This document shows, piece by piece, positions 53,147 through 54,093 of a DNA stretch of 64,000 nucleotides (its first letter is position 1; every line of letters starts with the position of its first letter). The stretch comes from Candidatus Rhodoblastus alkanivorans (lineage in GTDB: Bacteria; Pseudomonadota; Alphaproteobacteria; Rhizobiales; Beijerinckiaceae). The notes below the pieces were generated by a model. The model was not told where the DNA came from. It was given only the letters and a program-made list of their open reading frames with translations, and did not search any database. The position numbers and the translations under genes are program-made. The stretch is from NCBI RefSeq assembly GCF_022760755.1, contig NZ_JAIVFP010000001.1, positions 885,501-949,500 of the forward strand, given 5' to 3'.

Positions 53147-53280
53147 GATTTTCTCCGATCCTCCTTCGTTTCGGCGCAGGCCGCACTATATCTTTTTCAG
53201 GCGCGCGGAAAGCCAGTCTCGCAATTTTCGAAGACGGCTTTTTGAGAGGGTCGAAAGTACAATGGCCCCGCGAGAAGATT

Positions 53281-53295
53281 TGCTGCATTGCAACA
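53281..53295. promoter_or_regulatory. PhaR-like operator, copy 1
   Basis: TGCTGC-ATT-GCAACA at 53281-53295, an imperfect inverted repeat (one mismatch between arms). It matches the CTGC-N3-GCA type reported for the polyhydroxyalkanoate regulator PhaR. It lies 81 bases before the phasin-like/LuxR start. Confidence 0.55.
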
Positions 53296-53311
53296 TAGAA
53301 ATGTGGAAGCG

Positions 53312-53326
53312 TGCTGCGGCGCAACA
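53312..53326. promoter_or_regulatory. PhaR-like operator, copy 2
   Basis: TGCTGC-GGC-GCAACA at 53312-53326 has the same arms as copy 1 and a different centre. It begins 31 bases after copy 1, about three helical turns, so two repressor units could bind on one face of the DNA. Confidence 0.55.
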
Positions 53327-53361
53327 AACGCCGTCCTTTCCGTTCATTGCAGGATCAATCT

Positions 53362-54093
53362 ATGGCGAGCTACAAGGAACCCCAAGGGCAGCCTGAGAGT
53401 TTCGCGCCGTGCGAAACGCCGGCGGCGGACGAGGAACGCGCCGCGGACGACCTTTCCGGGCCCTCTGCGCCGATATCCGAAACCAATGGCGTGGACAGCC
53501 TGTTCGCGCGCCAGACGCGCATGGTCTTCGACCTGTTGCAGACAGCCGTCGAAGAGGCGGCGGAGACGGCGGAAAGCCGGAATGTGAAGGTCGCGGCGGA
53601 ACTCCACGATCTCCAGTTGCGGGCGTTGCGCTCGCTGCACGAAAGCGCCCTCGCGACGGTCGAATTGTTCGAGGCGCTGAGCGCGGCGCAGACGCCCGGC
53701 GAGTTGGCGAGGCGCCAGATCGCTCTGGCGCGCCGCCAGGGCGAGTCGGTGAGCGAACGGCTCCAGGAATTCTTCCTCTCGGCGCGCAAGATCGCCACCG
53801 CGATGACGGCGCCGCCCACGCCGGCAGATCGCGGGCCGGCGGAAAAGGACGACAATCTGTTCACGCGCCTCGACCGGCTGACCGCGCGGCAGAAAGGCGT
53901 GCTGGAGTTGCTGGCGCAAGGCCTGCCGAACAAGGTGATCGCGCATCGGCTCGGCATCAGCGAGACAACCGTCAAGGCCCATGTCGGCGAGATTTTGCGC
54001 AAGCTGAAGGTCTATAATCGCGCCCGGGCGATCGCGATGCTCGCCCAGATCGACGCGACGCGGATCGGCGCCGTGCCGGACGGCGAGGCTTGA
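53362..54093 (+). CDS. Phasin-like domain fused to a LuxR-type HTH regulator
   Basis: A 243-residue protein. Residues 1-45 are polar and disordered. About 47-148 form a long amphipathic helical region with the phasin pattern: SLHESALATVELFEALSAAQ, then TPGELARRQIALARRQGESV, ending in LQEFFLSARKIA. About 173-232 are a LuxR/FixJ-type HTH (LTARQKGVLELLAQGLPNKV, then HRLGISETTVKAHVGEILRK). No receiver or autoinducer domain is present. The ATG at 53362 has AGGA seven bases upstream. Two PhaR-like sites precede it. The inference is a DNA-binding regulator that can sit on polyhydroxyalkanoate granules. Confidence 0.75.
   Translation: MASYKEPQGQPESFAPCETPAADEERAADDLSGPSAPISETNGVDSLFARQTRMVFDLLQTAVEEAAETAESRNVKVAAELHDLQLRALRSLHESALATVELFEALSAAQTPGELARRQIALARRQGESVSERLQEFFLSARKIATAMTAPPTPADRGPAEKDDNLFTRLDRLTARQKGVLELLAQGLPNKVIAHRLGISETTVKAHVGEILRKLKVYNRARAIAMLAQIDATRIGAVPDGEA

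Follow-up and report, generated by a model that had tools for sequence, protein, structure and literature searches.

A predicted phasin-LuxR fusion protein encoded behind PhaR-type twin operators in Candidatus Rhodoblastus alkanivorans, a possible granule-coupled regulator

Organization of the locus

The window analysed here, a 64,000-nucleotide stretch of the Candidatus Rhodoblastus alkanivorans genome, contains a gene that encodes a fusion of a phasin-like half and a LuxR-type helix-turn-helix (HTH) and is preceded by two PhaR-type operators (Table 1). The earliest start in the open reading frame list is the GTG at 53311; the ATG at 53362 was preferred because it is preceded by AGGA and because the starts of four aligned proteins coincide with it (MASYKE, MASYRD, MTSYRD, and MASLND).

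In the Pfam search, Phasin_2 (PF09361) was matched at residues 65-151 (E = 8.2e-7, 29.6 bits, cut-off 24.9) and GerE at residues 172-226 (E = 8.6e-20, 70.6 bits, over the cut-off). Both domains that an earlier note had read from the letters of the DNA, a phasin pattern at about residues 47-148 and a LuxR-type HTH at residues 173-232, were thus recovered, and the predicted helices (42-149 and 166-229) agree with them. The absence of a receiver or ligand domain was likewise borne out: no such domain was matched at E ≤ 1 in Pfam, and the protein therefore falls outside the two-component response regulators, which carry Response_reg. PF05597 and PHB_acc_N were also absent at E ≤ 1, leaving Phasin_2 as the sole phasin family matched.

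An AlphaFold model based on a seven-sequence alignment comprises a disordered tail, two helices (42-108 and 112-149), a short linker, and the HTH. As a single chain, the model has a mean pLDDT of 69 and a pTM of 0.30, which counts against the regulatory reading preferred below; because of these values, the placement of the parts relative to one another is not fixed by the model.

Table 1. Features of the fusion gene and its upstream region (positions in the window)
Feature	Position	Strand	Basis
Conserved element GAAAGTACAATGG, promoter part or candidate protein-binding site	53253..53265	+	Lies 15 bp before operator 1
PhaR-type operator 1, TGCTGCATTGCAACA, core 53284-53292	53281..53295	+	Agrees with the YGCRNYGCR core of the S. 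meliloti PhaR box
PhaR-type operator 2, TGCTGCGGCGCAACA, core 53315-53323	53312..53326	+	Exact match; 31 bp from operator 1
AGGA, likely ribosome-binding site	53351..53354	+	Sequence; 7 bases 5' of ATG 53362
Predicted phasin-LuxR fusion CDS, 243 aa	53362..54093	+	ORF list, Pfam; in 7/11 genus genomes including its own
Residues 1-41, disordered fast-evolving tail	53362..53484	+	pLDDT <50 (residues 1-40); 1/41 columns invariant; dN/dS 0.51 / 0.81
Residues 42-150, putative phasin half, two long amphipathic helices	53485..53811	+	Phasin_2, predicted helices, helical moment; profile finds phasins
Residues 166-231, LuxR/NarL helix-turn-helix	53857..54054	+	GerE 70.6 bits, 1je8 superposition, 50/66 columns invariant (seven proteins)

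Distribution and selection

Full-length homologues were identified in 7 of the 11 genus genomes, in which all candidates were scored, and in 12 of 397 family genomes belonging to three genera (the present genome is included in both counts), so the same domain pair is found in related genomes, as the earlier note had envisaged. In the wide genome searches, a subset of each genome's candidates was scored (7 of 63 for the present genome), and the absence of the fusion outside the family is therefore not proven. Plasmid records gave no match to the fusion at E ≤ 1e-10. A second LuxR protein, 39% identical and with a related N-terminal half, is encoded in genome G304 (L078, contig C32), which also has an orthologue; this relative and the 12 full-length proteins form the 13-protein set used below.

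The zapA gene adjoins the fusion gene in all six orthologue contigs, and metX, on the opposite side, is complete in four of them and represented by a short match in two. In the fusion-less genus genomes, metX lies elsewhere, and the synteny comparison there says nothing. Among seven aligned proteins, invariant columns number 50 of 66 in the HTH and 34 of 109 in the phasin half. The dN/dS values in two close pairs were 0.05 and 0.25 for the phasin half and 0 and 0.06 for the HTH. Both halves of the fusion are under purifying selection.

PhaR-type operators

The sequence TGCTGC-N3-GCAACA occurs exactly at the two operator sites and nowhere else in the window, confirming the twin copies described in the earlier note. 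PhaR is a regulator that binds both poly-hydroxybutyrate (PHB) and DNA (PMC12542648, available text). The S. meliloti PhaR box, WNWD2NYGCRNYGCRNH2WNW, is supported by EMSA and point changes, and the two phasin promoters of that species each contain two copies of the box, according to the same text (PMC12542648). Both sites of the window fit its YGCRNYGCR core, as well as the looser GCN3GC core reported for Bradyrhizobium PhaR in the portion available of PMC10888616. The present genome contains one PhaR gene (PF07879, 103.3 bits), which adjoins a thiolase-like gene (by eye).

The spacing of the two boxes was compared with that in a set of phasin promoters comprising 30 loci from 60 family genomes, some of them close relatives; because the best-scoring loci were kept, the set favours one phasin type. 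A core was found within 350 bp in 28 of the 30 loci, and a pair spaced by 30-33 bp in 25, with 31 bp being the commonest distance. Among 1024 control tiles, which represent the two strands of the same DNA, 5 had such a pair, and shuffles had one in 0.2% of cases. The assignment of the sites to the PhaR type therefore holds for spacing as well as for sequence. In the present genome, the pair spacing is 31 bp at one phasin locus (L001), 18 bp at another (L002), and 19 bp at a gene pair (L005/L004), and one phasin locus (L003) is without a pair. Phasin promoters appear to fall into two spacing classes: 30-33 bp in the best-scoring phasins (25/30), and 17-19 bp in the phasins nearest to the N-terminal half of the fusion (23 of 29, L177-L205, and the present genome's L002 and L005).

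When the genome was scanned for TGCTGCN3GCANCA, four of the places listed ended in GCAACA, including both operators. Zero-mismatch matches at C1:245790, within atpG, and at 1986234 and 3419602, within two tuf copies, were set aside (by eye); others lie directly 5' of an alpha/beta-hydrolase-like ORF (1120414, by eye) and 5' of a phasin gene (2137477). A single box with one mismatch is common, with 166 rows on both strands versus 82 for a control pattern. Cores spaced by 30-33 bp occur at three places in the window, and the strict form TGCRNYGCA is present at both cores only upstream of the fusion gene. This strict pair, TGCRNYGCA-N20-24-TGCRNYGCA, was found at 7 places in the present genome versus 0 for the reversed pattern, and at 28 places versus 3 over the 11 genus genomes. 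Of the seven places, one is that of the fusion gene and another, C1:2137480, belongs to the best phasin gene. Three more, C1:640595, C1:3806247, and C2:24468, are at copies of mmgR (RF00519, Makes More Granules Regulator RNA). The remaining two are at a Peptidase_S15 ORF and, within coding sequence, in a TPR-like ORF (by eye). Of the 21 strict pairs in the remaining ten genomes, 17 were read by eye: 9 lie in front of a phasin-like ORF and 8 in front of an mmgR-like sequence, and the one mmgR-like sequence submitted to Rfam was matched. In this genus, the strict pair mostly marks polyhydroxyalkanoate (PHA) genes, and the fusion gene is among those carrying it. The proposed association of the motif with PHA genes thus stood for the twin form, which is rare and has four of its six other places at a phasin gene or mmgR; it did not stand for the single one-mismatch box, which is common.

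Two observations on other carriers of the strict pair are added here. Since the pairs lie directly 5' of mmgR at three loci (L171, L173, and L174, with an extra copy at positions 1145-1220 of L173), this PHB regulator RNA is present in several copies behind PhaR boxes in the genome. At C1:564084 (L170), a strict twin box lies approximately 115 bp 5' of the Peptidase_S15 hydrolase ORF, with a spacer lacking TTGAC; this ORF is a possible candidate PhaR target.

A PhaR core was found 76-112 bp 5' of the chosen start codon in 12 of the 13 genes of the set, including the present one and proteins with identities down to 32%. In G492, the flank of the gene differs; for the G304 relative, no PhaR core was found upstream in a gene that reaches the contig edge. 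Two points count against full equivalence with phasin promoters. The remaining fusion genes carry a single box or, in the case of G425, two boxes 87 bp apart, and none has a 31-bp pair; and the spacer in the window lacks the TTGAC found in most strict-pair promoters of phasin and mmgR genes. The motif as a chance occurrence was rejected by the genome counts, the twin-box control, and conservation. The sequence comparisons support the view that the fusion gene carries a twin operator of the PhaR type, like that of phasin genes, and is a putative member of the PhaR regulon.

Conserved element upstream of the operators

Within the conserved element, GAAAGTMCWATRG was found at the same place in 8 of the 12 promoters compared, namely those of seven members of the Rhodoblastus group (the present one included) and that of G492. 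Of its 17 places in the 11 genomes, 7 belong to the fusion gene, 8 lie 5' of a NosR-like gene, and 2 are elsewhere. Seven of the eight NosR-like loci were read into the ORF, the remaining one (L222, at a contig edge) was placed by its matching leader, and one protein was matched to NosR. That copy lies at C1:1691791 of the present genome (L228), before a gene whose product scores 267.8 bits to NosR (cut-off 1000). All 4 fusion-less genus genomes have GAAAGTMCWATRG 5' of the NosR-like gene. Because of this second location, the element is not specific to the fusion and was rejected as the fusion's own target. The CrbR sites given in the available part of PMC5715377 do not resemble it, and nothing resembling it appears in the text consulted on RpuR (PMC9100948), which does not give a full site sequence. 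Only unrelated titles were obtained among the matches listed when its letters were searched in literature text. A consensus scan found no sigma-70-like promoter. Following the element over the 11 genus genomes led to no assignable site as the DNA target of the fusion, which counts against a regulatory role.

Relationship of the N-terminal half to phasins

The Phasin_2 signal of the fusion is low, 28.6 bits in the scan of its own genome versus 51.7 to 82 for the five other genes over the cut-off. The NCBIfam phasin_2 model matched residues 50-151 with 21.2 bits, and since the equivalog cut-off is 99.7, the fusion lies outside that equivalog. A home-made profile of 35 phasins gave 18.0 bits, compared with 9.9 for the best of 1000 shuffles of the N-terminal part (979 gave a score), and 14.3 to 20.8 bits for five of the six other genus members. 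Several results with this profile count against a phasin origin: the best shuffle of the sixth member, G302, exceeded the protein itself (12.2 versus 11.6 bits); scores of 2.9 to 9.8 bits, at noise level, were obtained for four of the five distant proteins; and the proteins of G492 and the G304 relative gave no match. With Pfam, Phasin_2 was matched at E ≤ 0.1 in 8 of the 13 proteins and GerE in all 13.

When the 12 N-terminal halves were aligned with the 35 phasins as profiles (HHalign), the score was 33.2 with a probability of 57%, compared with a maximum of 14.4 for column-shuffled phasins (90 results) and 11.6 for reversed phasins; in each set, between 7 and 11 of the 100 shuffles yielded nothing and were left out. 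The probability decreased to 44% for the seven genus members alone, which also counts against the preferred reading, and the five distant proteins alone gave a score of 22.3 versus 12.4 in the control, with a probability of 5%. In the opposite direction, a profile made from the N-terminal halves only matched 98 of 397 genomes of the order. Its second match in the present genome is a phasin at C1:2590216, and 29 further loci that were read encode phasin-like proteins of 114-181 aa without an HTH (by eye); Pfam gave 57 to 76 bits to Phasin_2 for five of these and for the phasin at C1:2590216.

The mean helical moment is 0.391 for helix 42-108, a value reached by 0 of 2000 shuffles, and 0.446 for helix 112-149, reached by 3.4% of them; the hydrophobic moment of these helices resembles that of the five phasins measured. 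The earlier note had also considered homologues with an unrelated N-terminal domain, and none emerged among the 12 full-length proteins, which keep the phasin-like half (weakly so in the case of the five distant proteins), while the wider relatives of the HTH carry a receiver. Taken together, these sequence data support the assignment of the N-terminal half as a phasin domain, with a weak signal, especially in the five distant proteins. Separately, the phasin-like half of the distant homologues L081, L082, and L083 of genus g145 includes a stretch rich in cysteine, CPRD(I/V)TCLHLGDWNRCNSC, which might bind metal or sense redox.

The HTH half and its origin

The HTH superposes on the NarL-DNA complex 1je8 with 1.0 Å over 61 columns (48% identity). 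Receiver-LuxR regulators of the NarL/ErdR type are its best family, PDB, and genome matches. In a Foldseek search, the 50 matches listed were all LuxR-type or response-regulator structures, with no phasin by title, which counts against the reading preferred below. A search of the class (385 genomes, E ≤ 1e-19, 57 matched) gave, besides the fusion gene, only matches that start at a model position of at least 118. Fourteen ORFs containing relatives of the HTH were read from the order and class searches, a selection that does not include some order matches starting at query residue 88. By eye, the fourteen have receiver sequence, and Response_reg plus GerE were confirmed in 2 of them with Pfam; the partial HTH matches read were thus rejected as further fusions. 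Because the relatives read are receiver-LuxR regulators, the simplest history, judged from relatedness, would be the replacement of the receiver by a phasin in a NarL/LuxR-type regulator. The NarL type of the HTH and its invariant columns suggest that it recognizes a fixed target sequence.

Comparison with known systems

PhaR/AniA (PF07879), a PHB-binding repressor whose operator is found here, resembles the fusion in coupling a response to PHB with DNA binding. The fusion differs in lacking PHB_acc_N, its predicted polymer-binding part being a phasin and its DNA-binding part a LuxR HTH, and phaR is present separately in the genome. PhaF of Pseudomonas, which we take to be a member of PF05597, and PhaM of Ralstonia combine, like the fusion, a granule-type domain with a DNA-binding part. 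Their DNA-binding parts are non-specific or histone-like, whereas that of the fusion is a NarL-type HTH, and neither PF05597 nor a histone-like tail was found in it. Deletion of phaF alters the transcription of phaC1 and phaI (PMC9049629, available text). Receiver-LuxR response regulators of the NarL/ErdR type share the HTH, but the fusion has a phasin half in place of their receiver. The Phasin_2 phasins (PhaP) of this genome and family share the helical phasin domain and the twin PhaR box, whereas the phasins of the order that were read lack an HTH. The part available of one review names PhaR, PhaF, PhaM, and PhaQ as granule-bound links of PHB stores to transcription (PMC9049629). No description of a phasin-LuxR fusion was found in the literature searched (titles and abstract openings, with subscription literature mostly outside).

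Possible function of the fusion

The fusion may be a PhaR-controlled, granule-coupled one-component LuxR regulator with a phasin as its input domain, a reading to which we give an even chance. We infer its granule binding, DNA targets, and release switch as follows. PhaR would repress the gene until PHB granules titrate it away, as S. meliloti PhaR is reported to be drawn off its promoters by granules (PMC12542648, available text), and the fusion would therefore be made, together with phasins, when granules exist. Its phasin half would settle on the granule surface through the amphipathic helices, and the state of that surface would control the HTH. Aeromonas PhaP is reported to be tetrameric in solution and monomeric on PHB (PMC5658603, partial text). 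If the same holds for this phasin half, the HTH would be kept apart from its partner as long as the protein is on the granule; once the granule surface disappears or becomes saturated, the released protein would form pairs and bind DNA. The phasin would then do for this HTH what the phosphorylated receiver does in its relatives, as a switch without phosphorylation. More tentatively, and with somewhat less than even likelihood, the signal would be the surface of the storage granule itself and not a phosphate or small ligand, with monomers on the polymer silent, oligomers binding specific promoters once exhaustion of the store or a full surface has released them, and PhaR setting the amount of the sensor in a two-layer granule-to-genome circuit.

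The main rival is a tether of the PhaF/PhaM kind, in which the protein would occupy the granule through its phasin half and be anchored to the chromosome by the HTH, for granule positioning and sharing at division, regulation being secondary. DNA-binding phasins in such a role, namely Pseudomonas PhaF and Ralstonia PhaM, are described in the available texts (PMC5658603 and PMC9049629), and the operator resembles those of phasin genes. In the same texts, however, DNA binding by PhaF is non-specific and the C terminus of PhaM is histone-like with PAKKA motifs (PMC5658603 and PMC9049629), whereas the DNA-binding part here is a folded NarL-type HTH whose conservation suggests a fixed target; we regard a tether as unlikely, though well worth keeping in view. 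It is rather improbable that the protein is a LuxR-type regulator whose phasin-derived helices merely oligomerise or contact proteins, such as phasins, PhaC, or PhaR, without polymer binding. The divergence of the phasin half from the five other Phasin_2 genes would fit such a role, as would the coiled-coil sequences reported in most phasins (PMC5658603, partial text), but the hydrophobic moment of the helices is like that of the phasins measured and the PhaR-type operators link the gene to the presence of granules.

A non-phasin coiled coil whose score reflects composition, behind a box present by chance, would explain the modest home-made profile score, the noise-level scores of G302 and the distant proteins, and the limited HHalign probability; it is very hard to reconcile with the Pfam match over the cut-off, the 1000 shuffles beaten by the window protein, the far lower scores of column-shuffled and reversed profiles, the retrieval of phasins by the N-half profile, the box in 12 of 13 genes, and the rarity of the twin box in shuffles. 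A decaying or non-functional fusion, suggested by its absence from 4 of the 11 genus genomes and its presence in only 12 of 397 family genomes, is scarcely credible given the low dN/dS of both halves and the zapA neighbour kept in all six orthologue contigs.

For the granule-coupled regulator as proposed in the earlier note, the phasin and LuxR architecture, the twin operator, and the absence of a receiver thus stand, and the regulatory interpretation is supported in part, at the level of sequence. If it is true, the combination of a phasin with a sequence-specific HTH would be a direct reporter of granule state, an organelle-surface domain could take the place of a receiver, and the fusion would offer a modular part for storage-responsive promoters. 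Through this protein, the carbon store may act directly on gene regulation.
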